Below are positions 1-18,536 of a DNA stretch of 19,349 nucleotides, piece after piece. This DNA comes from Paracoccaceae bacterium (GTDB lineage Bacteria > Pseudomonadota > Alphaproteobacteria > Rhodobacterales > Rhodobacteraceae): positions 1 through 19,349 of the forward strand of contig JALQUQ010000008.1 of NCBI GenBank assembly GCA_023263735.1, in the 5' to 3' direction. The position numbers were made by a program, and so were the translations under genes. The notes beneath the pieces were generated by a model. It saw nothing but the letters and a program-made list of their open reading frames with translations, was not told the DNA's origin and did not search any database. The first letter of the stretch is position 1. Every line of letters starts with the position of its first letter.

Positions 1-4
1 AGGG

Positions 5-907: not shown

Positions 908-947
908 GGTGCGTCCTCCTAGGGCATGGGGGCTCGGGCATGGGGGC

Positions 948-976: not shown

Positions 977-980
977 GCCG

Positions 981-1026
981 GGAAACGGGGTCTTACGACC
1001 AAGGCAGGGGTTTTGCGCCCGTTTCC
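981..1026. repeat. 9-bp inverted repeat with inner hairpin between two minus-strand genes
   Basis: GGAAACGGG (981-989) is perfectly complementary to CCCGTTTCC (1018-1026), with a 28-base loop. Inside it GGTC (989-992) and GACC (997-1000) form a smaller competing hairpin. The structure starts 21 bases after the stop of the upstream glycosyltransferase gene and lies just upstream of the MoxR promoter candidate. No U-tract follows on the minus strand, so it is not a classical terminator. It could be a factor-dependent terminator, an mRNA 3'-end protector or an operator. Confidence 0.4.
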
Positions 1027-1046
1027 GGTGGCCCGGACCTGTCGGG

Positions 1047-3251: not shown

Positions 3252-3310
3252 ATCGACGGTTTTTCCCTTTTTGGCGCCGTGATCCGGCACCCCGATACCT
3301 TGCTTGATCT

Positions 3311-3337
3311 TTGGCGGATTGCCAAGGTTTTGCGCAA
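3311..3337. promoter_or_regulatory. palindromes in the divergent intergenic region
   Basis: TTGGC-GGATT-GCCAA (3311-3325) is a perfect 5-bp-arm palindrome. The 8-bp palindrome TTGCGCAA follows at 3330-3337. Both lie between the divergent glycosyltransferase genes, in the only AT-richer part of this gap. They are placed as an operator for a shared divergent promoter would be, but short palindromes also arise by chance. Confidence 0.3.
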
Positions 3338-3350
3338 TTCGGCAAAGGAC

Positions 3351-3379
3351 TTGTCCGTTTGCTGCAAAATTGCCGTTAT
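3351..3379 (+). promoter_or_regulatory. candidate promoter of the glycosyltransferase operon
   Basis: TTGTCC (3351-3356) is separated by 17 bases from CGTTAT (3374-3379); an alternative -10 is TATGCT at 3377. Transcription would start near 3386, leaving a leader of about 60 bases that contains a small perfect hairpin (CGGTC-AAG-GACCG, 3420-3432). This placement argues against use of the in-frame ATG at 3378 as the start of the next gene. The -10 match is weak. Confidence 0.3.
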
Positions 3380-3446
3380 GCTAAGGCAAGCACAGCGCCA
3401 GAGAGCGAAAAGAGGGCAGCGGTCAAGGACCGTCACGATAGGGGCA

Positions 3447-5750
3447 ATGGCAGAACCGATCCCAGAACAGACCCCGCGCGTGGTGCATCGCCGGTTGGGG
3501 GCGGAAGACATCGGTCGCGATGGGGTGACGCGCCTGTTGGATTGCACGGCCGGCCCGGATGGGCGGGTCCGGGCGTTTTTCGGGGCGGGCACCGCCCCCA
3601 CGGCCTTTGCGCCCGATGGCGGTGAGGGGTGCGCCCTGCCCGAGGAATTGCGCGATGTGTCGGGATCAACCCTTGTGACGCTGCGGGGCGAGGCTGGGGC
3701 GACCGAGGCTGGGGTGCGGATCGCCCTGACCCATGGCGCGCCGCTGACCGTGGTGCCCTGTCTGGCCGAGCCGCATCTGTTTGCGGGCCTGAACGCGACG
3801 TTTGGCTTTCGGCTGGATGAGACGGCGGCGCAGGTGGCCGAAGGGATCGCCTATCATGCCCGCCATCACGGATTGCAGGCCGCGCTGGTCGTGAACCGCT
3901 GCCCCGATCCCAGCGCGCCGGATGATTTCGTCATGGGGCTGCGACAGGCGCTGGCGGGGGTGGATGTCACCGTCGTGGTGCTGGATTGTCCGGTCCCCTT
4001 GGGCAAGGCGGGGGTTGGGCCCGAAAATCACGTCTATCATGCGCCCGACGCCCCGGGCCGGGATCGGATGGAGGTGCCCGCGCCCGATCCTTGGCGGGCG
4101 CAACTGGCGGAACAATTGATCTTTGAGCTGGCGAAATGGCGGTTTTTGTCGCAGGCGCGGGCGGTGCTGCAACTCGATGTGACCGATATTCTGGCCCCCA
4201 ATGCGCCCCCGGCCTTTGACCGCTGTGCGGCGGCGAAAAGCGGGGTCGTGCTGTTGGTCGGGCGGCGGATCTATCCGTGGCGCATCCGGCCCAAATCCTT
4301 GGCCCGGTTTGGCGACCATATCTGCCGGCAATTCGATGCCCGGCGCGGAACGGCCCGGTGGGGGGTGGCCCCGGAAAAGGCGGGGCTGGCCAACACATGG
4401 CGTCTGGTGCGCGTGGCCTATGCCAAGCCCGATCTGGACGAGGTCATTCCGTTTTACCGGGCCATGGCGATCCGGGTGCCCGGGCGGGCATCGGGCGAAT
4501 TGGCGCCCAAGACCAGCCTGATCGAAGATCCGGACCTGTTGACCATGGCCGAAACCCTGTTCGGCCACAAACCGGTGCGCGCGCCCGTATCCACGCCAAA
4601 GCCTGCCCCCAGACAGGCCGCAAGCGCCGGGCGCACCGCCATCGTAACCACGATGAAGAACGAAGGCCCGTTCATTCTGGAATGGCTGGCCTATCACCGC
4701 GCGATCGGGGTCGATGACTTTCTGGTCTATACCAACGATTGCACCGATGGCACCGATACGATGCTGGCGATGTTGCAAGACAAGGGCATCGTGCAGCACC
4801 GTGCCAACCCTTGGAAACCGGGGGGCATTCTGAAACCCCAGCATGCCGCGCTTCAGGCCGCGGAATCGGAACCGGTGATGCAAGACTGCGGCTGGGGCAT
4901 CTGCATGGATGTGGATGAATTCATCAACATCAAGATCGGCGACGGCACCCTGGGGGCCTTGTACAGCGCGATGGGCACGGCCAACATGATCAGCCTGACA
5001 TGGCGGCTTTTCGGGCATTCCGGCGTCGATGACTATCACGACGATCTGGTCATCAGCCAATTCACCCGCTGCGCCCCCGAAATCATTCGCAAGCCGCATC
5101 AGGCTTGGGGGTTCAAGACCCTGTTCCGCAACATCGACATCTACCAGAAACTGGGTGTTCATCGGCCCAAGGGGTTAAAGCCCGACCTATGGGATCAGGT
5201 CGAATGGCTGAACGGGTCCGGCAAACCCATGCCGCGCGAGATGTTCCGCAACGGCTGGCGGTCAACGCTGGAAACCTATGGCTATGATTGGGTGCAGTTG
5301 AACCACTATGCCTGCCGGTCCGCCGAAAGCTTTCTGGTCAAGCGTGACCGGGGCCGGGTCAACCATGTCGATCGCGATCAGGGCCTGAATTACTGGTTCC
5401 GCATGAGCCATAATGTCGATCAAGACCGCTCGATCCTGCGGATGGTGCCCAAGGCGCGGGCCGAATTTGATCGGTTGATGGCCGACCCCGATATCCGCGC
5501 GGCCCATGCCTATTCTGTCGCCTGCCACAGGGCCAAGATCGCCGAATTGAAGGCGACCGAGAATTACGCGAAATTCTACGGGGAACTGACCGGAGAGCGG
5601 ATGCGACGGCTGTGCCGGATGCAGGCGCATTTCGGATCGAACGTGTTCAGCGCGGGGCCTCAGGTCATTCCCGACGCCATCGTCTTTGATGACACCCTGC
5701 CCCCCGATTTCTTCTTTACCGTTGATCATGCGGGGGAGGCAGAGCATTGA
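3447..5750 (+). CDS. two-domain glycosyltransferase (C-terminal GT2_4-type domain)
   Basis: 767 residues from the ATG at 3447. The C-terminal half (about 396-767) is a GT-A-fold glycosyltransferase of the Glyco_tranf_2_4 kind. It opens with IVTTMKNEG (from residue 399), has TNDCTDGT in the nucleotide-binding loop, the metal-binding D488-V-D490-E-F and a late N619-H-Y-A..S.ESFLVKRDRGRVNH block. The N-terminal half (1-380) lacks a clear NEG motif. It does have a YHARHHGLQAALVVNRCPD strand and an LDVTD segment (243-247) where the DxDEF strand would be expected, so it may be a decayed copy of the same fold. The reading frame is open far upstream, but that stretch is antisense to the minus-strand gene and lies before the promoter candidate. 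Spacing from AGGGG to the ATG is very short (2 bases), so the start is not certain. It overlaps the next gene by 4 bases. Confidence 0.82.
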   Translation: MAEPIPEQTPRVVHRRLGAEDIGRDGVTRLLDCTAGPDGRVRAFFGAGTAPTAFAPDGGEGCALPEELRDVSGSTLVTLRGEAGATEAGVRIALTHGAPLTVVPCLAEPHLFAGLNATFGFRLDETAAQVAEGIAYHARHHGLQAALVVNRCPDPSAPDDFVMGLRQALAGVDVTVVVLDCPVPLGKAGVGPENHVYHAPDAPGRDRMEVPAPDPWRAQLAEQLIFELAKWRFLSQARAVLQLDVTDILAPNAPPAFDRCAAAKSGVVLLVGRRIYPWRIRPKSLARFGDHICRQFDARRGTARWGVAPEKAGLANTWRLVRVAYAKPDLDEVIPFYRAMAIRVPGRASGELAPKTSLIEDPDLLTMAETLFGHKPVRAPVSTPKPAPRQAASAGRTAIVTTMKNEGPFILEWLAYHRAIGVDDFLVYTNDCTDGTDTMLAMLQDKGIVQHRANPWKPGGILKPQHAALQAAESEPVMQDCGWGICMDVDEFINIKIGDGTLGALYSAMGTANMISLTWRLFGHSGVDDYHDDLVISQFTRCAPEIIRKPHQAWGFKTLFRNIDIYQKLGVHRPKGLKPDLWDQVEWLNGSGKPMPREMFRNGWRSTLETYGYDWVQLNHYACRSAESFLVKRDRGRVNHVDRDQGLNYWFRMSHNVDQDRSILRMVPKARAEFDRLMADPDIRAAHAYSVACHRAKIAELKATENYAKFYGELTGERMRRLCRMQAHFGSNVFSAGPQVIPDAIVFDDTLPPDFFFTVDHAGEAEH

Positions 5751-6694
5751 CGGGGGGGTACACTGTCGTCACGACGATGAAGAACGAAGGGGCGTTTGTT
5801 CTGGAATGGGTGGCCCATTACAAGGCTTTGGGCTTTGACCATATCCTGATTTGCACCAACGATTGCGACGATCACACCCGCCGCATCGCCTTTCGCCTGC
5901 ACGCGCTTGGTCTTGCGGTGCATCACCCCACCCGGGTTTGGCCTTCGACCTCGATCCAGCGGTCGGCGTTGAAACAGGCGTTGCGCTACGACATCGTGAC
6001 CAAGGCAGATTGGGTCTGGGTGTGCGATGCCGATGAATTTCTGGTGGTCAAGCTGGGGGATGGAACCGTGCAGGCCCTGACAGCGGCGGCATCCCCCGAG
6101 GCCGAGGTGATTTCGGTGCCGTGGCGCATCTTTGGATCGGACGGACAGCACGACTATCGCGAAGGGCCGATCACCCGCCAATTCACCCGCTCCAATGCCG
6201 ACCAGCCCTTTGCCTATGGGAAATCGCTGTTTCGGGGCAGTCTGAAGGTTGCGCGGATCGGCATTCATGTGCCGCTGGAGCCCGAAGGCGCCCGCCCGTT
6301 TCGGCGCGAAGAGGCCGGGGGCCGCCCCTATCGTGCGCAGCGTCATCCGATGTTTGTGGCGGCCGATTACCAGCACGCCCAGATCAACCATTACGCCCTG
6401 CGGTCGGCTGAAAGCTTTCTGGTGAAACGCGATCGGGGACGGGTCAACCATGTGGGCCAAGACATGGGGCTGGAGTATTGGCAGCGCTTTGACCGGGCCG
6501 AGATCGCATGTTCTGCCATTCGCCGGTATGATGCGGCGGTCGATGCCTGGACCGAGCGCCTGATGTCGGACCCGGATCTGGCCTTTTTGCATCGAAAGTC
6601 GGTCAACTGGCACCGGGCACGGATCGCCCAATTGAAGACGCGGGCCGATTACCATGCGCTTTGGCAAACCGTCACCGAACGGGTGAAGACGTGA
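5747..6694 (+). CDS. single-domain GT2_4-type glycosyltransferase
   Basis: 315 residues from a TTG start. The TTG (5747-5749) overlaps the upstream TGA as TTGA and is preceded by GGGGGAGG with 7 bases of spacing, which strongly supports this rare start and points to translational coupling. The sequence opens directly with the catalytic domain: YTVVTTMKNEG (5-15), a CTNDCDD loop, D94-A-D96-E-F for metal and nucleotide-sugar binding, and a conserved INHYALRSAESFLVKRDRG block in the C-terminal third. There is no signal peptide or membrane segment, so it should act at the cytoplasmic face. It is clearly a paralogue of both neighbouring transferases, indicating tandem duplication. Donor and acceptor cannot be read from the sequence. 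Confidence 0.88.
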   Translation: MTGGYTVVTTMKNEGAFVLEWVAHYKALGFDHILICTNDCDDHTRRIAFRLHALGLAVHHPTRVWPSTSIQRSALKQALRYDIVTKADWVWVCDADEFLVVKLGDGTVQALTAAASPEAEVISVPWRIFGSDGQHDYREGPITRQFTRSNADQPFAYGKSLFRGSLKVARIGIHVPLEPEGARPFRREEAGGRPYRAQRHPMFVAADYQHAQINHYALRSAESFLVKRDRGRVNHVGQDMGLEYWQRFDRAEIACSAIRRYDAAVDAWTERLMSDPDLAFLHRKSVNWHRARIAQLKTRADYHALWQTVTERVKT

Positions 6695-7671
6695 AAGCCC
6701 TTGCCATCCTGACCCTGCGCAACGAAGGGGCCTTTCTTCTGGATTGGCTGGCCCATCATCGGGCGGTGGGCTTTACCGATTTTCTGGTCTTTACCAATGA
6801 TTGCGACGATGGCACCGACCAGATGCTGGACCGGTTGCAGGCCTTGGGGGGCGTGACGCATATCCGCAACCCCGGCCCATGGGATCAGGGCCCGCAATGG
6901 GCCGCGCTGCATCTGGCCGAACGTCACCCGGCCTTGGGCGCGGCCGATTGGGCCATGGTGATCGACATCGATGAATATGTGAACATCCATCTGGGCGCGC
7001 GGCGTCTGACCGATCTGATTGCCGCCCATCCCGATGCCGATGCCATCCCCCTGACGTGGCGGATGTTTGGCAATGCGGGCGTCGTGCGGTTCGAGGATCG
7101 CCCGATCCCCGCCGCATTCACCCGGGCCGCCCCGGCGATCCTGCATTGGCCGTGGCGGGCGCTGATGGTGAAAACCCTGTTCCGCCCCCGGGTCTTTCGC
7201 AAACTCGGCGTGCATCGCCCCAAGGGGGGCAAGGGCAATCCGGTCTGGTCTGACCCGCGTCTGGGCCAGCGGTTGTTTTCGGAACCGGGCAAGGATCATT
7301 ATCGTCAGGCCCAGTTGAACCATTACGCCCTTGGGTCGATGGAAAGCTATCTGGTGAAATGCGACCGGGGCCGCGCCAACCGAGAAGGAGCGGCCTTTGA
7401 CATGTCCTACTGGTGCGACCGGAATTTCTGCGATGTCGAGGATCGCAGCCTGTTGGCCCTTTCCTCGGAGGACGCGCGGGCGCGGCTGGCCGCTGACCCG
7501 GTGCTTTCGGCCCTGCATGACGCGGCCGTGGCGTGGCGGCGCGACCGTTTTGCCGCGCTGATGCGCGAAGAGCCGTGGCGGGCGCTGTTTGGTCGGTTGC
7601 TGATGACACCGCCCGCGCGGCCCCTGCCCGCGGCGCTGGCCGAGCAGATCCGCAGCTTTCGTATCGAATGA
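6691..7671 (+). CDS. single-domain GT2_4-type glycosyltransferase
   Basis: 326 residues from the GTG at 6691, which overlaps the previous stop as GTGA. A longer in-frame reading from a TTG at 6661 would add ten residues inside the preceding gene and is less likely. Motifs follow the neighbours: ILTLRNEGAF at the start, FTNDCDDGTD, D92-I-D94-E-Y, and NHYALGSMESYLVKCDRG. In the last block the lysine is kept but several residues differ from the other two copies (KCDRGRAN for KRDRGRVN), so this is the most diverged catalytic core and may use another acceptor. It is the last gene before an intrinsic terminator, so the three transferases form one transcription unit. Confidence 0.88.
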   Translation: MKALAILTLRNEGAFLLDWLAHHRAVGFTDFLVFTNDCDDGTDQMLDRLQALGGVTHIRNPGPWDQGPQWAALHLAERHPALGAADWAMVIDIDEYVNIHLGARRLTDLIAAHPDADAIPLTWRMFGNAGVVRFEDRPIPAAFTRAAPAILHWPWRALMVKTLFRPRVFRKLGVHRPKGGKGNPVWSDPRLGQRLFSEPGKDHYRQAQLNHYALGSMESYLVKCDRGRANREGAAFDMSYWCDRNFCDVEDRSLLALSSEDARARLAADPVLSALHDAAVAWRRDRFAALMREEPWRALFGRLLMTPPARPLPAALAEQIRSFRIE

Positions 7672-7699
7672 CGAAACACTGTGTCGCCAACTCTCTGGC

Positions 7700-7728
7700 T
7701 TGCGGGAAAATGCCCCTTTTCGCATGAT
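7700..7728 (+). promoter_or_regulatory. candidate promoter upstream of the hydrolase-like gene
   Basis: TTGCGG (7700-7705) and CATGAT (7723-7728) are separated by 17 bases. The -10 box matches four of six consensus positions and the -35 box three. If it is used, the transcript would have to pass the hairpin at 7741-7772 before reaching the gene at 7784. Confidence 0.3.
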
Positions 7729-7740
7729 TGAGCGATTATC

Positions 7741-7772
7741 GACCGGGTTCGCCCGAGTCCTTTTTGTCTTTT
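7741..7772 (+). terminator. intrinsic terminator after the glycosyltransferase genes
   Basis: The RNA would fold as GAC-CGGG, a UUCG tetraloop, then CCCG-(bulged A)-GUC, a 7-bp stem with one bulge, followed by CUUUUUGUCUUUU. The UUCG loop on a GC stem is very stable and the U-rich tract is right behind it. The next gene's ribosome-binding site AAGGGG begins at 7773, directly at the end of the U-tract. The element therefore ends the upstream operon and also sits in the leader of the next gene. Confidence 0.7.
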
Positions 7773-7783
7773 AAGGGGTGACC

Positions 7784-8755
7784 ATGTCATCGATGGACAA
7801 GCCCGCAGATGCGGTCGCGCAGCCGGCCGCCAATCCGGCGACACGCAGCGCGTGGTTTGCCAAAATCGATCAACTGGTCGAGGAGTCTGGCTATCTGGAA
7901 CCCTTGGGCAAACATCATTGGGCGTTTTTCACCGATGAAAGCCCGACCCTGATCGTCAGCTTTGAGCGGCTGGACGATATCCTTGAGACGCCCGAACAGA
8001 TGCCCTTGGGCCATGATCTGGCTGCGGCGCAGGGCTGGTCGCATCTGTGCATCATCGCCGATGGGCCAACCTGGTATCGGGACAAGCGCGTCTATGGCTA
8101 TTTCGACCGTCTGGTCGATGAGGCGTTCTTTGACGATTTCGATCGCGTGGTCTTTATGGGCAGCGGTCCGCAGGGCTATGCGGCGGCGGCGTTTTCGGTG
8201 GCGGCCCCCGGCTGCGATGTGATCGCCCTGTCGCCCCGCGCCACGCTGTTGCCCGATGTGGCCGTCTGGGATCAGCGCGACCTGACCGCCCGCCGTCTGG
8301 ATTTCACCAGCCGCTATGGCTATGCCCCCGACATGGTCAGCGGAGCGCGCAAGGTGCATGTCTTTTACGACCCCGACATCCGCGAAGATGCGATGCATGC
8401 GGCGCTGTTCAGCGGCAATTACGTGAACAAATACAAAATGCGCATGACCGAGGGGCGCAGCGAATGGACCTTGGTCAAGATGCATCTGTTGCCCCAGATC
8501 GTGGAGCAGGTGCTGGATCACTGCCTGACCCCGTTGTCCTTTGCCAAACTCTGGCGCGCGCGGCGCAATTTCGGCCCCTATCTGCGCAATATCCTTGGCC
8601 GGGCCGAGGCTTTGGGGCGAACATCGCATGAAAAGGCGATCTGTCGCTCTGTGACCCAACGTCTGCAGGCCCCACGGTTCCGCAAACGTCTGACCGAGAT
8701 TCAAGCCGCCGAAGCGGCCGCGACCGCAGCCTTGGCCCCCTCTCCGAAATCCTGA
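7784..8755 (+). CDS. alpha/beta-hydrolase-like protein with altered nucleophile elbow
   Basis: 323 residues from the ATG at 7784, chosen because AAGGGG (7773-7778) lies 5 bases upstream; the first 20 residues are low complexity. The body matches the C-terminal domain of the minus-strand protein at 1047-3251: a WYRD motif, a strand, the elbow region, AAAAFS.A.PG.DV.A.SP..TL, then a YDP segment and a C-terminal [12 protein letters not shown] helix. At the elbow the other protein has GASMGG while this one has GSGPQG (126-131), so the aligned nucleophile serine is glycine (Gly128). As I recall, relatives in Rhodobacteraceae are sometimes named phosphoadenosine phosphosulfate reductase; nothing here shows the motifs of that enzyme. 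A binding or structural role is possible. It stands between the glycosyltransferases and pyrC, with its transcription gated by the terminator ahead of it. Confidence 0.75.
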
Positions 8756-8816
8756 GGCGCGACGCCGCGCGAAAAGCGCTGGAAAACCATCTGCGCCTGC
8801 GGTATCGCGCTGGATC

Positions 8817-9860
8817 ATGACCCATCACATCACCCTCCGCCGCCCCGATGATTGGCACCTGCATCTGCGCGACGGCGCAATGCTGCAAGGTGTCTTGCCC
8901 GAATCCGCCCGCCACTTCGCGCGCGCGATCATCATGCCCAATCTGGTGCCCCCGGTTGTGACCGGCGCACAGGCGGCCGCCTACCGCGACCGGATTCTGG
9001 CCGCCCTGCCCGCCGGTTCGGATTTCCAGCCGCTGATGACCCTGTATCTGACCGAAAGCACCGATCCGGCCGATGTGGCCGCGGCGGCGGCTTCGGGGTT
9101 GGTCAAGGCGGTCAAACTTTATCCGGCGGGGGCCACCACCAATTCGCACGGCGGGGTGCGCAATTTCGACAAGGTGATGCCCGTGCTGGAAAAGATGGCC
9201 GAGATCGGTCTGCCGCTTTGCACCCATGGCGAGGTGACGACGCCCGAGGTTGATATCTTTGACCGCGAGGCGGTGTTCATCGATACCGTGCTGGACCCGC
9301 TGCGCCGCCGCATCCCCGAATTGCGCGTGGTGATGGAACATATCACCACATCGCAAGGCGCGGCCTATGCGGCCGAAGGGGGCGACCGGCTGGCCGCGAC
9401 GATCACGACCCATCATTTGATCATCAACCGCAACCACATTCTGGTGGGCGGGATCAAGCCGCATTACTATTGTCTGCCGGTGGCCAAGCGCGAAGAGCAT
9501 CGTCTGGCCCTGCGCAAGGCCGCCACCAGCGGCAAGGGGTGCTATTTCCTTGGCACCGACTCGGCGCCGCATGTGGATGCGCTGAAGGAACACGCCTGCG
9601 GCTGCGCGGGCTGTTTTACGGCAACGAATACGATGCCACTCTTGGCGCATGTGTTCGAGGAAGACGGCGCGCTGGACAAGCTGGAAGCTTTCACCAGCCT
9701 GAACGGCCCGGCCTTTTATCGGCTGCCGGTGAATGAGGGCCGCATGACGCTGGTGAAACATGAAGCGGCGACGCGGTTCCCCGACAAGATCATGACCGAG
9801 GCCGGGCCGGTGACGGTGTTCGATCCGGGCTATCCGGTGCATTGGGCGGTGGAAGGCTGA
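8817..9860 (+). CDS. pyrC: dihydroorotase
   Basis: 347 residues, close to the 348 of Escherichia coli PyrC, and of the same short class. It closes carbamoyl-aspartate to dihydroorotate, the third step of pyrimidine synthesis, in the cytoplasm. The zinc ligands can be placed by motif: H14 and H16 in HLHLRDG, the carboxylated lysine K100 in [12 protein letters not shown]137 in CTHGE, H175 in MEHITT and the catalytic D248 in LGTDSAPH. All are shifted by two from the E. coli numbering, so the enzyme should be active. The start is the ATG just before the [13 protein letters not shown] strand; there is no strong ribosome-binding site ahead of it. It precedes pyrE by 352 bases with a small ORF between. 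Confidence 0.97.
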
Positions 9861-10216
9861 TCGAACCGGGCGCAGCGGCGTTTGCCCCCATCGAGGGGGC
9901 GCGCGCCGCGTTGCCACGGCCCCGGAACGGACCTGCGCTCTCGGGTCATGCCGCATTGCAGGAAGCGTTGGAGCCCGGCGCATTCACCCGCATCACCCGG
10001 CCTGCCGACTGGAAGACCCGCGCGCAACGTTTAAGCCGACGCGAAACAGGCGCCGATCTGGAATGGCCCCTTGACCGTTCAAGAGTGCTTGACGGCATCC
10101 TGCGTTCTGGTCCATCCCCCGATCTAGACATAGACACAACCGATCTTGACCCCTGGCAGGGGACCGATGCCCTGCTGACCGCGACAGATTGGCCCCGCCC
10201 AAAGGAACGCCCATGA
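9842..10216 (+). CDS. small hypothetical protein between pyrC and pyrE
   Basis: An open frame of 124 codons from a TTG at 9842, which overlaps the end of pyrC by 19 bases, to a TGA that overlaps the pyrE start as ATGA. A later TTG near 9911 is another possible start, and none has a good ribosome-binding site. I recognise no family. The product is soluble, rich in Pro, Arg and Asp, with acidic [12 protein letters not shown] near the C-terminus and no membrane segment. In favour of a real gene are the exact ATGA junction with pyrE and a coding-like third-base bias in the first two thirds. Against it are the poor start and the drift in codon use near the end. If not a gene, 9861-10212 holds only a long pyrE leader. 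Confidence 0.4.
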
Positions 10217-10893
10217 TCCCGACCACCTTTCCCCACCGTGACGAAATCGCCCGTCTGACCGCACGGGCGCTTTTGGAAATCAAGGCCGTGCACTTTAACG
10301 CCGAGACGCCGTTCACGCTGGCCTCGGGCCTGCCCTCGCCCACCTATATCGATTGCCGCAAGCTGATTTCTTATCCCCGCATCCGGTCGATGCTGATGGA
10401 TTTCATGGCGGTGACCGTGATGCGCGATGCCGGGTTTGAGGCGTTTGACAACATCGCCGGGGGCGAGACGGCGGGCATTCCCTTTGCCGCGCTGGTGGCC
10501 GAGCGTCTGGCCCTGCCGATGACCTATGTGCGCAAAAAGCCGAAAGGCTATGGCCGCAACGCCCGGATCGAAGGCGCGATGACCGAAGGGCAGCGCGTGC
10601 TTTTGGTCGAGGATCTGACCACCGATGGCGGATCAAAACTGTCGTTCGTCGATGCGATCCGCGAAACCGGGGCCACCTGTGCCCATACGGCGGTGATTTT
10701 CTACTACGGCATCTTTGCCGGCACCGAAGAGCGTCTGGCCGAACATGGGGTCAAGCTGCATCACCTGTGCACCTGGTGGGATGTCTTGGCCGAAGCCCGC
10801 GCGCAAGGATCGTTCGATGAGGCGACCCTGACCGAAGTCGAGGCGTTCCTGAACGCGCCCCGCGCCTGGCAAGAGGCGCGCAAAGCGCAATAA
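10213..10893 (+). CDS. pyrE: orotate phosphoribosyltransferase
   Basis: 226 residues. Transfers phosphoribose from PRPP to orotate to give OMP, the fifth step of pyrimidine synthesis. The start is the ATG at 10213: AAAGGA lies six bases before it and the alphaproteobacterial-type N-terminus ([20 protein letters not shown]) begins there. Seen are the orotate-contacting [13 protein letters not shown] segment (38-50), the flexible catalytic loop with [15 protein letters not shown] (107-121) and the PRPP-binding motif [13 protein letters not shown] (129-141), in which D138 stands where TTG is usual (TTDGGS for TTGGS). Length and motif order fit the family. A strong intrinsic terminator follows 21 bases after the stop, so pyrE ends its transcription unit. 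Confidence 0.96.
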
Positions 10894-10914
10894 TCCCCGA
10901 CATAGCTTTCGATC

Positions 10915-10947
10915 ATGCCGCCGGAGAGATCCCTTCGGCGGTATTTT
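10915..10947 (+). terminator. intrinsic terminator of pyrE
   Basis: CCGCCGGAG (10918-10926) pairs with CTTCGGCGG (10933-10941) around a six-base loop, with one G-U pair. The stem can extend by three weaker pairs to 10915 and 10944. TTTT (10944-10947) follows. The position just after pyrE and before the dnaB leader fits a transcription boundary. Confidence 0.8.
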
Positions 10948-10981
10948 CGTCTGTTGCCGCCCGCCTGTGCTAGGGTTGGAC

Positions 10982-11010
10982 TTCTCCACAGGAATTCGAT
11001 CCTGTCCACA
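10982..11010 (+). promoter_or_regulatory. pair of DnaA-box-like 9-mers upstream of dnaB
   Basis: TTCTCCACA (10982-10990) differs at one position from TTATCCACA, and CTGTCCACA (11002-11010) at two. They are in the same orientation, with starts 20 bases apart, so on one face of the helix. Both continue with G, giving a direct repeat TCCACAG. Between them CAGGA and TCCTG form an inverted repeat. Control of dnaB by DnaA is an inference from position. Confidence 0.4.
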
Positions 11011-11114
11011 GCTACGGGTCACTTGAAAGGGTCAAAGGCCGGCGCAATTTTGCTAGGCAAATGAACCCATCCAGAATCAGATCGAAGCCGGACCACCGGA
11101 CGATGCAGGACGCC

Positions 11115-11183
11115 ATGAACGAAGTTGCCAAGATCGCGCCAAAAACCGTTGCCTCGCCCGACGGCGGGGAAACCGATGTCTAG
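11115..11183 (+). pseudogene. separated N-terminal segment of dnaB ending at TAG
   Basis: From ATG at 11115 (AGGA 4 bases upstream) 22 codons read MNEVAKIAPKTVASPDGGET plus two residues and stop at TAG (11181-11183). A MNEV-type opening followed by a short linker is what I remember from DnaB of Rhodobacterales. Two further in-frame ATGs lie upstream (11061, 11103). The main dnaB frame resumes in another phase 60 bases later. I therefore take this as the true 5' end of dnaB, cut off by the lesion described in the next entry. Confidence 0.5.
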
Positions 11184-11188
11184 TCACC

Positions 11189-12604
11189 TTGCGCAGCTTC
11201 TGTATCTGTAAACGTAATAGCTTCGTTATCAACCCCAGCGCCAGTCTGGTGAAGGCCGAGCATTTCTTTGACCCGGTGCATCGGCGCATCTTTGAAAAGA
11301 CGGCGGCGCGCATTCAAAAGAACGCACTGGCCAGCCCCGTGACGCTGAAGCCCTTTTTCGAAGATGACGAGGGGCTCAGGGAGCTGGGCGGCCCGGCCTA
11401 TCTGGTGCGTTTGGCGGGGGCGGCGATTTCGTCCTATGCCGCGCGCGATTACGCCCAGATGATTTACGATTTGGCGGTGCGGCGCGAACTGATCTCGCTG
11501 GGGCGCGAGATTTCGGCCAAGGCGGCCAAGGTGGAAATCCAGTCCGAACCGCGCGAACAGATCATCGAGGCGGAACAGCGGCTTTACAAGCTGGGCGAAC
11601 AGGGCGTGGCCGAACGCGGGTTCCAAAGCTTTTTGAAAGCCGTGACCGATGCGGTGAACGTGGCCAACGCGGCCTATCAAAGGGGCGGCGGTCTGGCGGG
11701 CATTTCGACCGGGCTGATCGATCTGGACAAGAAGATGGGCGGCCTGCACGAATCCGACCTGATCATTCTGGCGGGTCGTCCGTCGATGGGGAAAACCTCG
11801 CTGGCCACCAACATCGCCTTCAACATCGCCAAGGCCTACAAACGCGGCCGCAAACCCGATGGCAGCGAAGGCGCGGTCGAAGGCGGTTGTGTGGGCTTTT
11901 TCAGCCTTGAAATGAGCGCCGAACAATTGGCCGCCCGTATCCTGTCCGAGGCTGCCGAAGTGCCCAGCGAACAGATCCGCAAGGGCGACATGACCGAAAC
12001 CGAATTCCGCCGCTTTGTCGATGCTGCGAAATCGCTGGAATCCTGCCCGCTTTATATCGACGACACGCCTGCCCTGCCGATCAGTCAGGTTGCGGCCCGC
12101 GCCCGCCGCCTGAAGCGGACCCATGGTCTGGATGTGCTGATGGTGGACTATCTTCAGCTTCTGAAAGGCTCGTCCAAGGGGTCGGAAAACAACCGCGTGC
12201 AAGAGGTTTCCGAAATCACCCAAGGGCTGAAGGCGATTGCCAAGGAACTGAATATCCCGGTGATCGCGCTGTCGCAGCTTTCGCGTGCGGTCGAAAGCCG
12301 CGAGGACAAGCGTCCGCAACTGTCGGACCTGCGGGAATCGGGCTCGATCGAACAGGACGCTGACGTGGTGATGTTTGTGTATCGCGACGAATATTATCAC
12401 GAACGCCTGAAACCGCCGGAAGACGACCCACGCTTTGCCGAATGGTTCGAAAAGATGAACCGCGTGCATGGCAAGGCTGAAGTGATCTTGGGCAAACAGC
12501 GCCACGGTCCGATTGGCACGGTAGAACTGTCGTTCGAGGGCCGGTTCACCCGATTTGGCAATCTGGCGCAGCCTTGGCATGGGGATGACGCCTATAACGG
12601 CTGA
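11189..12604 (+). CDS. dnaB: replicative DNA helicase DnaB, N-terminus disrupted
   Basis: The frame gives 471 codons from a TTG at 11189. From SLVKAEHFFDPVH onward it is a normal DnaB: N-terminal domain, linker, then the RecA-like motor with Walker A GRPSMGKT (196-203), the FFSLEMSAEQLAARIL stretch, Walker B MVDYLQLL (Asp320), LSQLSR with the sensor glutamine, and the KQRHGPIGTVEL arginine region. What should precede it, the helix usually reading like EAEQQLLGAIL.N, is missing. The first 16 residues (LRSFCICKRN...) look unlike any DnaB and come from a stretch of about 45 per cent GC. Counting from ATG 11115 to the resumption of homology, the DNA is about 16 bases shorter than expected and out of phase. 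Either the gene is frameshifted, the sequence has errors here, or a shortened protein starts downstream. DnaB unwinds DNA at the fork and is normally essential. Confidence 0.85.
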   Translation: MRSFCICKRNSFVINPSASLVKAEHFFDPVHRRIFEKTAARIQKNALASPVTLKPFFEDDEGLRELGGPAYLVRLAGAAISSYAARDYAQMIYDLAVRRELISLGREISAKAAKVEIQSEPREQIIEAEQRLYKLGEQGVAERGFQSFLKAVTDAVNVANAAYQRGGGLAGISTGLIDLDKKMGGLHESDLIILAGRPSMGKTSLATNIAFNIAKAYKRGRKPDGSEGAVEGGCVGFFSLEMSAEQLAARILSEAAEVPSEQIRKGDMTETEFRRFVDAAKSLESCPLYIDDTPALPISQVAARARRLKRTHGLDVLMVDYLQLLKGSSKGSENNRVQEVSEITQGLKAIAKELNIPVIALSQLSRAVESREDKRPQLSDLRESGSIEQDADVVMFVYRDEYYHERLKPPEDDPRFAEWFEKMNRVHGKAEVILGKQRHGPIGTVELSFEGRFTRFGNLAQPWHGDDAYNG

Positions 12605-12622
12605 TCCGCACCGCACTCTTAT

Positions 12623-12651
12623 GCCGGGGCCCGTTCAAACCGGGTGCCGGC
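12623..12651 (+). other. stable hairpin after dnaB without U-tract
   Basis: GCCGG (12623-12627) pairs with CCGGC (12647-12651) and CCCG (12630-12633) with CGGG (12641-12644), joined by one mismatch and one G-U pair around a seven-base loop. It begins 18 bases after the dnaB stop. No run of U follows, so it is not a canonical terminator; factor-dependent termination or 3'-end protection of the dnaB mRNA would fit. Confidence 0.4.
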
Positions 12652-12698
12652 AGGACACCGAAACTCAGGTCGGCCAGTGGACATCTCGTTTTTTCTGC

Positions 12699-12727
12699 TT
12701 GACCGTTCTGCATGGCATGTAAAGAAA
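12699..12727 (+). promoter_or_regulatory. candidate promoter giving a leaderless alr transcript
   Basis: TTGACC (12699-12704) and AAGAAA (12722-12727) are 17 bases apart; a T-run (12689-12694) precedes the -35 box. The predicted start of transcription falls at or within a base or two of the alr ATG (12734). There is no convincing ribosome-binding site before that ATG. The -10 box is a weak match. Confidence 0.3.
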
Positions 12728-12733
12728 GCGGGC

Positions 12734-13783
12734 ATGGCTACTGCATCCCTTTCAATCGATCTTGATGCCATTGCCGCCAATTGGCGCGCTTTGGACCGTG
12801 CTTCTGCTTCTGGCGTGCAAACAGCCGCCGTTGTCAAAGCTGATGCCTATGGTTTGGGCATAACGCGCGTTGCGCGCGCCTTGGCGCGGGCGGGGGCGCG
12901 GCGCTTTTTTGTCGCCGTGGCCGAAGAGGGCGCGGCCCTGCGGCAAGCTTTGGGCCCCGGCCCGCAAATCTGCATTCTGTCGGGCCATATGGCGGGCGAT
13001 ACCGACATGATCCACGATCTGGATCTGACCCCGATGCTGAACAGTCTGGATCAGGTGACGCGCCATCTGGAATCGCTGCCGGGCCTGCCCTTTGGCGTGC
13101 AGCTTGATACCGGGATGAACCGTCTGGGCATGGAAGAGCCGGAGTGGGAGGCGATTGCCCCCTTTGTGCTGGAGGCCGGGCCGGAACTGATCATGTCGCA
13201 TCTGGCCTGCGCCGATGAGCCCGACCATGCGTTGAACGACCTGCAACTGGCGAATTTCCACGCCATGACCGATGGCACGGGGGTGCCGCGTTCGCTTGCG
13301 GCGACGGGGGGCATCTTGCTGGGCCCCAAATATCATTTTGACCTGACCCGCCCCGGCGTCGGTCTTTATGGTGGCCGCCCCTATGAAGGGGCCGCGCGGG
13401 TGGTGACGCTGTCGCTGCCTGTCATCCAGACGCGTCTGGTTCAGGCGGGCGAAGCGGTCGGTTATTCCTGCACTTGGGTTGCGGAACAAGATACCACGGT
13501 CGCCACCATTTCGGGCGGCTATGCCGATGGTCTGCTGCGCACGCTGTCAAATCGCGCGGTGGTCTGGGATGGCGATATCCCTTGCCCGGTCTTGGGCCGG
13601 GTGTCGATGGATCTGATCACGGTCGATGTCAGCCATCTGGACCGTGTTCCCCATACGCTTGACATCCTTGGGCCCTATCAGACGCCGGATGATCTGGCCG
13701 ATGTGGCCGGCACGATCGGCTATGAAATCCTGACCTCGCTCGGCAACCGCTATACCCGCCGGTATTCCGAGGGCGCGGCGTGA
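12734..13783 (+). CDS. alr: alanine racemase
   Basis: 349 residues, a PLP enzyme that interconverts L- and D-alanine for peptidoglycan. The lysine that carries PLP is K35 in [10 protein letters not shown]. The second catalytic base is Y244 in the motif AVGYSCTW, where the common form is SYG.TW. The [11 protein letters not shown] strand, the RPGVGLYG strand and the C-terminal [11 protein letters not shown] segment all match the fold type III barrel and its small beta domain. The ATG at 12734 is chosen because [13 protein letters not shown] is the usual opening strand; the frame is open upstream but would add 30 unrelated residues. It lies 129 bases behind dnaB and overlaps the next gene by 4 bases, so cell-wall and membrane-lipid functions are coupled here. 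Confidence 0.95.
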
Positions 13784-14562
13784 TCCTTGTGGCGCCCCTG
13801 CGCGCCATCGGGCAGACCGCCCTGCAGATCCTTGCCCTTTTGGGGCGGATCGTTCTTTTCGCCGGGGATGTGCTGGCCGCCATGGTGCGCCCGCCCTTTT
13901 ATCCGCGCGAATTCGGGCATCAGCTTTTGCAGATCGGCTGGTACAGCCTGCCTGTGGTTGGCCTGACCGCGCTGTTCACCGGGGGCGCGCTGGCGCTGCA
14001 AATCTATTCGGGCGGTGCCCGGTTCAATGCCGAGGCGGTGGTGCCCTCGATCGTCGCCATCGGCATGGTCCGCGAATTGGGGCCGGTGCTGGGGGGATTG
14101 ATGGTCGCGGCCCGCGTCGCCTCCTCCATCGCCGCCGAAATCGGCACGATGAAGGTGACCGAACAGATCGACGCGCTTGTCACACTCTCGACCGACCCGA
14201 CCCGCTATCTGGTGGTGCCACGTGTGTTGGCCGCCACGCTGGCGGTGCCCGTTCTTGTGGGGGTCGGTGATGCCATTGGCATCATGGGCGGCTGGATGGT
14301 TGGCGTTTCGCGGTTGGGGTTCAACTCGGCCGGATATCTGGCCAATACGCTCGACATCATCGAATTCTGGGATGTCGGTTCCGGTCTGGTCAAGGGGGCT
14401 GCCTTTGGCTTTATCGTCGCGCTGATGGGGTGCCTGCACGGCCTGAATTCGGGTCGCGGGGCCCAAGGTGTGGGGCGTGCCACGAAATCGGCGGTCGTGG
14501 CGGCCAGTGTCATGATCCTTGCCGCCAACTATCTGCTGACCGAGGTCTTTTTCTCTGCATGA
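13780..14562 (+). CDS. mlaE: MlaE-family ABC permease
   Basis: 260 residues, the family's usual size. MlaE is the inner-membrane permease of a phospholipid transporter that keeps the outer membrane asymmetric, working with the ATPase MlaF and an MCE protein MlaD. Hydrophobic segments lie near 10-36, 54-75, 88-115, 145-175 and 205-222, and a last one near 236-257. The conserved [35 protein letters not shown] block of the family is present at 99-133. The GTG start (13780) overlaps the alr stop as GTGA. The gene name is by family; no MlaD, MlaB or MlaC gene is found in the window, so substrate and direction are open. Confidence 0.88.
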
Positions 14563-15305
14563 TCGAACTGTCGGGCGTACATAAATCCTTTGGTGCCAAC
14601 CATGTGCTGCGCGGCGTTTCGCTGACCGTTCCCCAAGGGGAAAGCATGGTGATCATCGGCGGGTCGGGCACGGGCAAATCGGTGCTGCTGAAATGCGTTC
14701 TGGGTCTGGTGGTGCCGGACGGCGGCACGATCAAGCTGGACGGCGAAGATGTCAGCCATGCCGAGCGCGAGGCGTTTTTGGCCCGCTTTGGCATGCTGTT
14801 TCAGGGCGGCGCGCTGTTTGACAGCCTGAAGGTCTGGGAAAACGTGGCCTTTCGGCTGATGCGCGGCGCGACCAAACGCCCCAAGGATGAGGCCCGCGCC
14901 ATCGCCATTGAAAAGCTGCGCCGCGTGGGTTTGGGGCCGCAGGTCGCCGATCATTTTCCCGCCGAATTGTCGGGTGGCATGCAAAAACGGGTGGGACTGG
15001 CCCGCGCCATCGCCGCCGATCCCGAGATCATTTTCTTTGACGAGCCGACCACCGGGCTTGACCCGATCATGTCGGGGGTGATCAATGATCTGATCCGGGA
15101 AATCGTGGTAGAGATGGGGGCGACGGCGATGACGATCACGCATGACATGCGCTCCGTTCGCGCCATCGCCGACCGTGTGGCCATGCTGCATGAGGGCGGC
15201 ATCCGCTGGAGCGGGACGGTGGCCGAAATGGACACGACCCAAGACCCCTATGTCACCCAATTCGTGAACGGCCTTGCGACGGGGCCGATCAACCCGGTTC
15301 GCTGA
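14559..15305 (+). CDS. mlaF: MlaF-family ABC transporter ATPase
   Basis: 248 residues from the ATG at 14559, which overlaps the permease stop as ATGA. Walker A is GGSGTGKS (34-41), Q-loop LFQGGALFDSL, signature LSGGMQKR (137-144), Walker B IIFFDEPTTGLDP (D161, E162) and the switch histidine in TITHDM. LFQGGALFDSLKVWENV and LSGGMQKRVGLARA are typical of MlaF rather than of other ABC ATPases. It should power the adjacent MlaE-type permease. The short C-terminal tail after TQFVNGLA resembles the region with which MlaF contacts its partners. A longer upstream frame lies inside the permease gene and is not used. Confidence 0.93.
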   Translation: MIELSGVHKSFGANHVLRGVSLTVPQGESMVIIGGSGTGKSVLLKCVLGLVVPDGGTIKLDGEDVSHAEREAFLARFGMLFQGGALFDSLKVWENVAFRLMRGATKRPKDEARAIAIEKLRRVGLGPQVADHFPAELSGGMQKRVGLARAIAADPEIIFFDEPTTGLDPIMSGVINDLIREIVVEMGATAMTITHDMRSVRAIADRVAMLHEGGIRWSGTVAEMDTTQDPYVTQFVNGLATGPINPVR

Positions 15306-15754
15306 TGGACATCGCGCTTTACACCGCTGATCTGTCTTTTCTTTTTGAACACCCCTCTGTCTGGCTGAGCCTTGTTCAGGTTCTGATCGCTGTGATCCCC
15401 GTGCTGATCGGTCTGTCGGGATATGCGATGTGGCGCACGGGTGAACGCCATGGCCTGTCGATGATGGTCTGGGTCGCGGGCTATCTGGCCTGGATCTATT
15501 GGCCCATTCCGTTCGAAGAAGCCCTGATCCTGCCCGGGCGGATCGTATCGGTCATTCTGTGGGTCTGGCTGGTTCAGGCGTGGCAGCAGCGGTTGCGCTG
15601 GCACGAGCCATTGTTGTTGGCGGCCAATTTCCTGACGGCCTGCGCCCTGTTGACCCTGATCATCACCCTTGCCATTGCCACCATCCGCGATGTCATGGAT
15701 TGGGATCAACCTTCACAATCCGCTGAAATTTTAAGCAACTTGCCCATAGTTTGA
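15305..15754 (+). CDS. four-helix inner-membrane protein of unknown function
   Basis: 149 residues; the ATG shares its first base with the stop of the ATPase gene (TGATG), so translation is probably coupled. I do not recognise the family. Hydrophobic segments lie at about 18-43, 51-68, 75-93 and 103-127, with a short polar N-terminus, a central RTGERHG loop, a QQRLRWHE loop and a 22-residue polar C-terminus (DVMDWDQPSQSAEIL). There is no cysteine pair or obvious catalytic motif. Its place directly behind the permease and ATPase genes suggests an accessory subunit of that transporter or a passenger in the same operon. Confidence 0.75.
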   Translation: MDIALYTADLSFLFEHPSVWLSLVQVLIAVIPVLIGLSGYAMWRTGERHGLSMMVWVAGYLAWIYWPIPFEEALILPGRIVSVILWVWLVQAWQQRLRWHEPLLLAANFLTACALLTLIITLAIATIRDVMDWDQPSQSAEILSNLPIV

Positions 15755-16003
15755 TCAAAAAGACAGATTTTCATCCGTTCCGGCTGCACTTTTGCCTGCT
15801 ACCGATGGAACTCATTCGAGATTTTGATATCGAAAGGGACAGGCGTGATGGCGCGCCCAATCTTTGGCCTGTTACTCCCCAGGTGCAGGCAGCGACCTTT
15901 TCGGAAGCCGGTATTCTCCTCGATCCTTCCCTTCAGCATTCCGCGCCATCACACCTTTCTCCCTCCCTCTTGACCCTTGACCCGCGCCATAGCACCAAGG
16001 GGC
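15755..16003 (+). other. non-coding gap with a possible 41-codon ORF
   Basis: A 249-base gap in an otherwise tightly packed operon, AT-richer at its left end. A 41-codon ORF (15848-15973, MARPIFGLLL...) has a partial ribosome-binding site GGGACAGG ahead of its ATG but an arginine- and serine-rich sequence with no recognisable family. A longer overlapping frame from 15751 looks non-coding. TTGACC occurs twice, at 15970 and 15977, without a good -10 box. I see no hairpin with a U-tract. The gap may hold an internal promoter for the PqiA-like gene and radA. Confidence 0.35.
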
Positions 16004-16432
16004 ATGAAATGGCTGAACCTGACCCTTTTGATCCTTTTTCCGGTTGCGTTGTTTTCGCCCCTGATGCGGGCCGGGCTTTTGCCGATTTTTGGGCTGGATG
16101 AAATCTCGGTCATCAGCGGCCTGCAAAGCCTGTGGGGCAGCGATCCGGTTCTGGCCCTGATCGTCACGACGATGGCGGTTTTTGCGCCTCTGCTGAAAAC
16201 GCTGGGGCTGGCGTTGATCGATTTCAACCTTTTGTCGCCACGGGTTTTGCCTGTCCTGCATGGTCTGGGCAAACTGGCGATGGCCGATATCTTCCTGATT
16301 TCGCTTTATATTGTTCTGGTCAAGGGGATGGGGCTGGCGACGGTGGAAACCGCGTGGGGCCTTTATCTTTTTACGGGCTGCGTGCTGCTTAGCCTTTTCC
16401 TGTCGCATCACGCGGCCAAGGCCAAGCCTTGA
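16004..16432 (+). CDS. PqiA-like membrane protein (single half)
   Basis: 142 residues from the ATG at 16004 (MKWLNLTLLIL). Paraquat-inducible protein A is an inner-membrane protein that partners the MCE protein PqiB in envelope lipid transport; the E. coli protein has two such halves and over 400 residues, this one has a single half. Hydrophobic segments are near 3-21, 48-72, 93-109 and 115-135. The best family signature is LHGLGKLAMADIFLISLYIVLVK (85-107), which corresponds to the W-x-M-x-D-V-F helix of PqiA. The cysteine pairs that open longer PqiA proteins are absent. The start is uncertain: AAGGGG lies only one base from the ATG, and an in-frame TTG at 15977 would add nine residues. It is close to radA (31 bases). 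Confidence 0.78.
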   Translation: MKWLNLTLLILFPVALFSPLMRAGLLPIFGLDEISVISGLQSLWGSDPVLALIVTTMAVFAPLLKTLGLALIDFNLLSPRVLPVLHGLGKLAMADIFLISLYIVLVKGMGLATVETAWGLYLFTGCVLLSLFLSHHAAKAKP

Positions 16433-16463
16433 TAGCGCGCGTCGTCCGGGCTAGTCCTGCGAC

Positions 16464-17822
16464 ATGAGCAAGAACACAGCCTCTTTCACCTGTTCCGCCT
16501 GCGGTGCTGTTCACAAAAAGTGGCAGGGTCGCTGCGATTCCTGCGGGGCATGGAATTCGATCGTCGAAGAGGCCCCGCTGTCCTCGGGCCCCAAGGCTTT
16601 GGGCGCCAAGGGCCGATCCATTCCCCTGACCGATCTGGCCACCGAAGAATCGCCGCCCCCCCGCGCCGGTTCGGGCATTGCCGAACTTGACCGGGTGCTG
16701 GGCGGGGGGCTGGTTCCGGCCTCGGCCATTCTGGTGGGCGGCGATCCGGGCATCGGGAAATCGACCCTTTTGCTGCAAAGTGCGGCAAGCTTTGCCAACA
16801 ATGGCCTGAAATGTCTGTATATTTCTGGCGAAGAGGCCGCATCTCAGGTGCGGATGCGCGCCCAACGGCTGGGCCTGACCCAATCGCCCGTGGCCCTGGG
16901 CGCCGAAACCAATCTGCGCGACATCCTGACCACGCTGGATGAGGAACGCCCCCATCTGGCGATCATCGATTCGATCCAGACCATGTGGCTGGATACGGTC
17001 GAGGCGGCCCCCGGTTCGGTCAGCCAAGTCCGCGCCGCCGCGCATGAGCTGGTGACCTTTGCCAAACGGCGCGGGGTTGCCGTGGTCATCGTGGGCCACG
17101 TCACCAAAGAGGGGCAAATCGCGGGCCCCCGTGTGGTGGAACATATGGTCGACACGGTCCTTTATTTCGAAGGCGAGCGCGGCCATCAGTTCCGCATCCT
17201 TCGGGCCGTGAAAAACCGCTTTGGTCCGGCCGATGAAATCGGCGTCTTTGAAATGACCGGCGCGGGCCTGTCCGAGGTTGCCAACCCATCGGCGCTTTTC
17301 CTGTCGGGCCGCGACAGCCCCGCCCCCGGTTCCGCCGTCTTCGCGGGAATCGAGGGCACGCGCCCCGTGCTGACAGAAATTCAGGCCCTTGTCGCCCCCT
17401 CAACCCTCGCCAGCCCGCGCCGCACGGTGGTGGGTCTCGACTCGGGCCGCGTCTCGACGATTCTGGCGGTGCTTGAGGCCCGCTGTGGAATCCCCTTTAC
17501 CGGGCTCGATGTGTTTCTGAATGTGGCCGGTGGCCTGCGTGTTACCGAACCCGCCGCCGATCTGGCCGTGGCCGGAGCGCTGCTTTCCGCCCGCGAAGAT
17601 GTGGCAATTCCGCCAGACATGGTGCTTTTCGGGGAAATCTCGCTGTCGGGGGCCCTTCGTCCCGTGGGGCAAACCGAAAACAGGTTGAAAGAAGCGTCGA
17701 AACTTGGTTTTCAACAGGCCACAATTCCGTCCCGGTCCAAAACCGGGGGGGGCGAGGGTATGCGCTTGCGCGAAATGGCGGATCTGACCGCCTTTGTCGG
17801 TGAGATGTTCGGGGCCGGATAG
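16464..17822 (+). CDS. radA: DNA repair protein RadA (Sms)
   Basis: 452 residues, full length. RadA is a RecA-related motor that acts on recombination intermediates and promotes branch migration. The N-terminal zinc finger has C10-x2-C13-x10-C24-x2-C27. The motor follows with Walker A GGDPGIGKS (92-100), a YISGEEA segment, a Walker-B-like LAIIDSIQT strand and the RadA-specific KNRFG motif (250-254). The C-terminal part (about 285-452) is the Lon-protease-like domain, with LDVFLNVAGGLRVTEPAADLAVAGALLS and FGEISLSGALRPV; it is a scaffold in RadA. Nothing is missing. No clear ribosome-binding site precedes the ATG. cvpA follows after 19 bases, so radA and cvpA are probably cotranscribed. Confidence 0.97.
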   Translation: MSKNTASFTCSACGAVHKKWQGRCDSCGAWNSIVEEAPLSSGPKALGAKGRSIPLTDLATEESPPPRAGSGIAELDRVLGGGLVPASAILVGGDPGIGKSTLLLQSAASFANNGLKCLYISGEEAASQVRMRAQRLGLTQSPVALGAETNLRDILTTLDEERPHLAIIDSIQTMWLDTVEAAPGSVSQVRAAAHELVTFAKRRGVAVVIVGHVTKEGQIAGPRVVEHMVDTVLYFEGERGHQFRILRAVKNRFGPADEIGVFEMTGAGLSEVANPSALFLSGRDSPAPGSAVFAGIEGTRPVLTEIQALVAPSTLASPRRTVVGLDSGRVSTILAVLEARCGIPFTGLDVFLNVAGGLRVTEPAADLAVAGALLSAREDVAIPPDMVLFGEISLSGALRPVGQTENRLKEASKLGFQQATIPSRSKTGGGEGMRLREMADLTAFVGEMFGAG

Positions 17823-17841
17823 GCACCGCAGGAGAGGTGGG

Positions 17842-18408
17842 ATGGAAGGTTTTACGATCATTGATGCGGTGGCGGCGGGTGTCATCGTCTTGTCCGCCAT
17901 TCTGGCCTATTCGCGTGGCCTTGTGCGCGAAGCCTTGGCGATTGCTGGCTGGATCGGTGCGGCCATCGCGGCCTTCGTCTTTGCGCCTTCGTTCCAGCCC
18001 CTGATCAAGGAACTTCCCGTCGTCGGAGAGTTTCTGGGCAACAGCTGCGAATTGTCGATCATCGGGGCCTTTGCCGCCGTCTTTGCCGTGGGTCTGGTGA
18101 TCATGGCCCTGTTTACGCCGCTTTTTGCCTCGGTCGTGCAGCGTTCGGCCGTGGGGGGCGTTGATCAGGCGCTTGGCTTTCTTTTTGGCGTCGCGCGGGG
18201 CGTCCTCCTCGTCGCCGTGGCCTTTATCGTCTATGACCGTGCGATGGGGTCCAATGCGGTTCCCATGGTTGACGGGTCCCGCTCGGCCAAGGTCTTTGCC
18301 ACCTTTCAAACCAACATCGACGATAAAATCCCCGCCGATGCCCCGGGTTGGATCATGGCCCGTTACAACGACTTGACCGCTATCTGCGCCAAGCCTTCGG
18401 GCACCTGA
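17842..18408 (+). CDS. cvpA: CvpA-family membrane protein
   Basis: 188 residues from the ATG at 17842, preceded by AGGAG at 7 bases. CvpA was first linked to colicin V production in E. coli, where its gene also lies directly upstream of purF; its biochemical role is still unclear and has been tied to envelope stress and bile-salt tolerance. Four hydrophobic segments lie near 5-22, 32-50, 71-95 and 113-131. The signature YSRGLVREALAIAGWIGA at 23-40 and a GGVDQALGFLFGVARG block at 105-120 are typical. The polar C-terminus (132-188) is cytoplasmic or periplasmic by unknown topology. A gap of 128 bases with promoter-like signals separates it from purF. Confidence 0.93.
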   Translation: MEGFTIIDAVAAGVIVLSAILAYSRGLVREALAIAGWIGAAIAAFVFAPSFQPLIKELPVVGEFLGNSCELSIIGAFAAVFAVGLVIMALFTPLFASVVQRSAVGGVDQALGFLFGVARGVLLVAVAFIVYDRAMGSNAVPMVDGSRSAKVFATFQTNIDDKIPADAPGWIMARYNDLTAICAKPSGT

Positions 18409-18414
18409 GGCTGC

Positions 18415-18432
18415 GGGCCCCTCGCCCCTTTT
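18415..18432 (+). terminator. weak terminator-like hairpin after cvpA
   Basis: GGGC (18415-18418) pairs with GCCC (18424-18427) around a five-base loop, followed by CTTTT. A four-pair stem and four U are below the usual strength, so it would at most attenuate readthrough from cvpA into purF. Confidence 0.3.
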
Positions 18433-18474
18433 CCGCCGCAACGCAGCAAAGTGAACAAAAATCCATTTTCCGCA

Positions 18475-18504
18475 CGTGACAGCGGCGTGACACTGGCCTA
18501 AACG
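18475..18504 (+). promoter_or_regulatory. purF promoter region with tandem CGTGACA repeat
   Basis: CGTGACA occurs at 18475-18481 and again at 18486-18492, exactly 11 bases apart, one helical turn. GTGACA of the first copy can serve as a -35 box with TAAACG (18499-18504) as -10 after 17 bases. The second copy would then lie inside the spacer, a usual place for a repressor or activator site. The -10 match is weak and no known regulator is assigned. Confidence 0.35.
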
Positions 18505-18505
18505 G

Positions 18506-18536
18506 GGGGCGACACAGCCCAAGATGGAGTCGCCCC
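18506..18536 (+). promoter_or_regulatory. perfect 8-bp inverted repeat abutting the purF start codon
   Basis: GGGGCGAC (18506-18513) is complementary to GTCGCCCC (18529-18536) with a 15-base loop. The right arm ends at the base just before the ATG, and the ribosome-binding GGAG (18526-18529) lies in the loop with its last G in the stem. As RNA it would hinder initiation; as DNA it would be a palindromic operator near the predicted transcription start. Confidence 0.5.

Follow-up and report, generated by a model that had tools for sequence, protein, structure and literature searches.

The locus described here raises the question of how dnaB, an essential gene, comes to look broken near its 5' end. 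The stretch of DNA analysed (the window, 19,349 nt) is contig C729 of draft genome bin G000, an assembly of 3.2 Mb in 740 contigs that is 85.8% complete with 2.8% contamination. In this contig dnaB is flanked by pyrC, pyrE, and alr, and farther along lie genes for an MlaE-type permease and RadA and the start of purF (NCBIfam). Elsewhere in the window, at 5747-7671, two adjacent genes share their glycosyltransferase families (Glyco_tranf_2_4 and Glyco_transf_92).

Anatomy of the interrupted dnaB gene

The original dnaB start and leader frame lie at 11115..11183 on the forward strand, running from ATG 11115 to a TAG stop at 11181-11183; AGGA stands directly 5' of this ATG and another in-frame ATG is found at 11103. 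This leader, assigned from the sequence and by alignment with 14 relatives of the same genus, is identical to that of an intact copy, P0002, discussed below. The intact rest of dnaB (11240..12604, forward strand; assigned by Pfam and the relatives) is read in another phase and encodes the remaining N-terminal domain, the linker, and the helicase domain; the DnaB part encoded by 11240-12604 is 88-91% identical to that of the same-genus relatives. An earlier note on this DNA had claimed two such frames in different phases, the second of them clear from 11240, and both can indeed be seen in the sequence. Like other DnaB replicative helicases (PF00772, PF03796), the protein has a complete helicase domain (PF03796, DnaB_C, profile positions 1-255 of 255, E = 2.1e-104), and its gene is present in a single copy in the same neighbourhood as in relatives. 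Unlike them, the window copy lacks the first part of the N-terminal domain; PF00772 is matched only from profile position 27, with the leader sitting in the other frame.

The 59 nt between leader and main frame stand out in composition, with a GC content of 46% compared to 59% in the leader, 60% in the rest of dnaB, and 62% in the window as a whole. Equally AT-rich stretches of 59 nt are absent from the rest of dnaB and make up about 1% of those in the window. Stops occur in two of the three frames across this stretch. In both respects, AT-richness and stops, the first reading of the sequence was accurate.

DnaB was detected in 58 of 61 genomes, the window's own included, and three relatives were without it. 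In all 29 relatives whose loci were returned and read (14 of them from the same genus), the 5' end of dnaB is uninterrupted; a fifteenth same-genus genome, G012, yielded a dnaB fragment only and was left out of this reading. None of these 29 showed the alternative, a DnaB that genuinely begins farther downstream and has the same leader sequence. When the 14 same-genus relatives are aligned with the window at the nucleotide level, the leader and the main frame match on both sides; between them the relatives carry 75 nt (25 codons) and the window carries 59, so that the original estimate of about 16 missing bases turns out to be exact. The closest relative locus, L004, contains a 400-base stretch that corresponds exactly to CALLZQ010000839.1 (uncultured Tabrizicola). 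Among 80 named loci kept from 589 found, the match covers the 25 lost residues in every case; the motif that we searched for is present in 75 of the 80, four of the other five continue with a variant, and the fifth is L113.

A protein search, in which we considered the best 120 of 7,999 scored proteins, returned two informative entries. P0001, among these 120, is the window's own truncated DnaB of 471 aa. P0002, from a metagenome contig of 2,969 bases (source ENA), has the identical leader, is 98% identical to the window protein, and encodes an uninterrupted DnaB. Leaving the lesion aside, the window DnaB differs from P0002 at three residues, which cluster within seven residues near window 12290-12310. 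We considered this cluster as a possible anomaly and set it aside; it looks like ordinary variation, with L020 carrying the window's residues and L022 and L025 those of P0002. Neither a second dnaB nor a detached dnaB 5' end was seen in the 85.8% complete bin.

Origin of the 59-nt insert

The 59 nt align only weakly with the 75 nt of the 14 relatives: 23 of 500 shuffles equal the summed score. In the controls, the real score was reached by none of 500 shuffles for the next 59 nt downstream and by none of 300 for the leader. The reverse complement of the insert reads like protein, and its source was located only by a back-translated pattern of nine residues, which matched two contigs among 2.9 million viral contigs. 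For one of the two, nearly all of the anomaly is matched: on the reverse strand, antisense to dnaB, window 11182..11239 is identical at 56 of 58 bases to positions 694-751 of a viral contig, L286 (IMGVR_UViG_3300016666_000015), with an E-value of 8e-24 among 17 viral loci and of 2.4e-19 in the search of the window's own genome. The fragment at 11182..11239 thus stands where 74-75 bases of dnaB have been lost.

A protein scan returned 31 related viral loci, including the contig of L286 itself. Counting each contig once, 17 viral contigs match the insert, the 16 besides L286 more weakly; the match starts exactly at 11182 in 14 of them and at 11183 or 11184 in the other three. As a control, up to 300 random 59-mers were taken from the window, omitting those that begin close to the lesion; none matched the same viral set. 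In L286 the matching stretch lies in a gene for a repetitive, acidic protein of 311 aa, for which no PHROG match was found. Three neighbouring genes were tested: one clearly encodes a virion structural protein, another gives weak tail hits, and the third is without known function. The GC content of L286 is 39%, and no other parts of this contig were found in the genome bin. At both dnaB joints the virus sequence departs from the window at once and shares at most one base with dnaB, as judged from the relatives; no repeats judged relevant were seen at the joints.

Other searches gave no source for the insert. Searches of its own genome and 15 same-genus genomes returned the window itself and short weak matches only, the 29 matches in cultured phages were all weak (best E about 2), and plasmids gave none. 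An exact 34-mer and 20-mer of the insert were absent from the viral contigs, a 25-mer from genome_contigs, and a 20-residue reverse translation from the cultured phages. We attribute to chance a partial local match at window 8415-8444, which was equalled by 1 of 100 shuffles on the strand concerned.

Near-identity over the whole insert, together with its abrupt ends, shows at the sequence level that the insert is a viral gene fragment. This changes how the stretch should be read. The earlier note had taken two patches for remnants of the lost helix; CAGCTTCTG, its patch for QLL, falls within the stretch that matches the virus and belongs to it, and GCCAGTCTGGTG is in fact the point at which intact dnaB resumes. 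The gene itself is that of an ordinary replicative helicase, present in a single copy in a Tabrizicola-like member of the Rhodobacteraceae, and in this draft genome it carries a scrap of virus.

A second virus scrap in pdhA

We also examined gene integrity in the window and 20 further contigs of the 740 in the bin (C720-C728 and C730-C740) by comparison with 1.9 Mb of a relative, G010, which gave a usable match for 70 genes on 14 of the 21 contigs. Fifteen of the 70 genes were flagged, of which dnaB and pdhA are clearly broken. The other 13 are mostly explained by over-long reading frames in G010 or by diverged ends; by eye, o1080 seems to be a non-coding frame and o1568 to have a diverged C-terminus. 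We therefore take two of 70 as the minimum number of genes broken by virus scraps.

The pdhA gene (pyruvate dehydrogenase E1 alpha) lies on contig C722 and matches TIGR03182 over only the first 179 of 315 profile positions. The match ends at residue 200 and is followed by 139 nt of viral sequence (L071:3653-3791), which share 97.8% identity with viral contigs L282 and L284 and are 100% identical to L271 and L272 over 103 nt, the point where those two contigs end. This scrap encodes residues similar to the cyanophage major capsid protein, for example that of Pf-WMP3 (50%, E 5e-5). In G010 the best counterpart of the C722 DNA past the scrap (about 50% at the protein level) lies on L244, roughly 1 Mb from pdhA; a short stretch of this DNA also matches L192, 7-8 kb from pdhA. 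The missing third of pdhA was not found in the contigs examined, nor were other parts of L282 found in the bin. One pdhA joint has about 7 bases in common with the phage, and the junction region between pdhA and phage capsid sequence, L071 (C722) 3646-3791, constitutes a second chimeric joint in this bin.

Two observations concern the layout of G010. There, dnaB and pdhA are about 14-16 kb apart (L193, C7:280001-300000), and C722 and C729 are neighbours, an adjacency that may be due to chance. The two halves of the window, 1-8409 and 8779-19349, correspond to regions about 0.86 Mb apart in G010. We dropped the idea of a contig break near 8.4-8.8 kb; other relatives, including L090 and L091, have the same gene upstream of pyrC, which makes a contig error less likely than a rearrangement in G010.

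Probable origin of the splice

The virus scraps in dnaB and pdhA very probably reflect chimeric molecules or contigs rather than mutation in a living cell, and the dnaB lesion is most likely not a real biological feature. We infer that the splice was made outside the cell; a chimeric DNA molecule would have formed while the DNA was amplified or the library made or, by an alternative route, the assembly of a thinly covered metagenome bin would have introduced a wrong fill or merge. Several lines of evidence argue for this. Foreign sequence with abrupt ends sits inside an otherwise ordinary gene; it matches L286 at all but two bases, the virus diverges immediately past both ends, and the rest of L286 is absent from the bin. 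P0002, with the same leader, is uninterrupted, as are all the relatives read, and every named locus covers the 25 residues. A similar joint occurs elsewhere in the bin, where the DNA joined to pdhA finds its best match in G010 about 1 Mb from that gene. Finally, dnaB is essential and was found in a single copy, in a bin that is fragmented and incomplete. If at least two of 70 genes broken by two different viruses were typical, there would be dozens of such lesions per genome, hardly bearable for a living cell; given the small sample, this estimate is an argument rather than a measurement.

Some features count against an artefact. Both dnaB flanks come from the same gene, in the right order and orientation, and similar lengths were lost and gained (75 and 59), which is not required of random chimeras. 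The rate of two in 70 rests on a small sample, and in G010 C722 and C729 lie side by side. No short overlap accounts for the dnaB joints, where virus and gene have at most one base in common; such near-blunt joints argue against an assembler overlap error and leave chimeric molecules or a wrong fill. With regard to the three options raised in the earlier note, a sequencing or assembly error is the best supported, although it takes the form of a virus fragment spliced in and not of wrongly called bases.

Metagenome assemblies can yield chimeric contigs. The present case resembles these in that foreign sequence is joined within a draft bin of many contigs, and differs in that the insert is just 58 nt with the same gene on both sides. 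Lasken and Stockwell (2007; PMC1855051) describe chimeras from whole-genome amplification as junctions of unrelated or distant DNA with intervening deletions, often with a few shared bases, much like the pdhA joint that shares about 7 bases with the phage. Those chimeras are mostly inverted and within one molecule, unlike the arrangement here, where a virus fragment lies between two correctly ordered pieces of one gene. We found no literature on this case, which does not prove that such papers are absent.

If the scraps are indeed artefacts, the dnaB splice is useful as a warning on draft genomes: tiny virus scraps can sit inside their essential genes. Gene callers truncate such genes silently, as with the 471-aa P0001, which is catalogued as an entry of its own, and the scraps are open to misreading as mutations, new start sites, frameshifting, or links between virus and host.

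Near-blunt joints with a small deletion, as seen in dnaB, resemble the products of end joining. It is conceivable, though unlikely, that end joining closed a break in dnaB with the loss of about 75 bases and the capture of a 58-base piece of virus, the cell living on an unbinned copy of dnaB or on a shortened helicase. Viral contigs of aquatic type, which the piece matches, are a plausible source, and 14% of the genome is missing from the bin. The proposed rescue by a second dnaB nevertheless found no backing in our search of the bin, with the proviso that the bin is only 86% complete, and P0002 is uninterrupted.

A shortened helicase with a new start fares poorly as well. The sole ATG, GTG, or TTG of the main frame between the upstream stop and 11240 is TTG 11189 (11189..11191, forward strand; ORF list), which lies within the viral fragment, 5 bases past TAG 11181-11183. 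By eye no Shine-Dalgarno sequence was seen for it, and no DnaB of the 29 relatives read has its start at this point. PMC2761005 reports that Helicobacter pylori DnaB without residues 1-66 loses only 20% of its helicase activity, which favours a functional shortened protein; it also reports that the N-terminal domain is needed for unwinding in the helicases of E. coli, B. stearothermophilus, and SPP1, which speaks against one. Real lesions would require at least two events in core genes (dnaB and pdhA), involving two different viruses, with both becoming the consensus.

The broader version, in which this lineage truly captures very short pieces (58 and 139 nt) of two different phages at chromosome breaks, scarring core genes such as dnaB and pdhA and obtaining its helicase through a restart or a change of frame, seems to us quite improbable. 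A real splice would be relevant to the way in which bacteria mend broken chromosomes, and such capture would be a natural record of virus DNA as patch material in bacterial break repair.

Recoding past the TAG is extremely unlikely. Here ribosomes would still make the helicase by restarting at TTG 11189, by shifting frame by -1, or by hopping from the GTC codon at 11178 to that at 11183. The main helicase frame is open across the insert and the stop is embedded in GTC TA GTC; PMC5009743 describes hopping between matched codons that flank a stop, and the window resembles the T4 gene 60 bypass treated there in that the codon before its stop occurs again a few bases later. Unlike in that system as described, skipping the insert fails to restore the protein, with 75 dnaB bases gone, and there is no stem-loop. 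The 25 codons are absent rather than merely interrupted, so no route restores the family sequence. The insert is viral, none of the 29 relatives read has the arrangement, and the RNA shows no more structure than expected by chance (166 of 200 shuffles fold equally well or better; fold z-score 0.91). Nothing in these results favours a restart, a -1 shift, or a hop.

There is next to no chance that several small miscalled indels lie within true dnaB sequence; the earlier note had suggested multiple small indels, and the weak leftover alignability, equalled by 23 of 500 shuffles, leans that way, but the match of 56 of 58 bases to a viral gene contradicts it and points to a single replacement.
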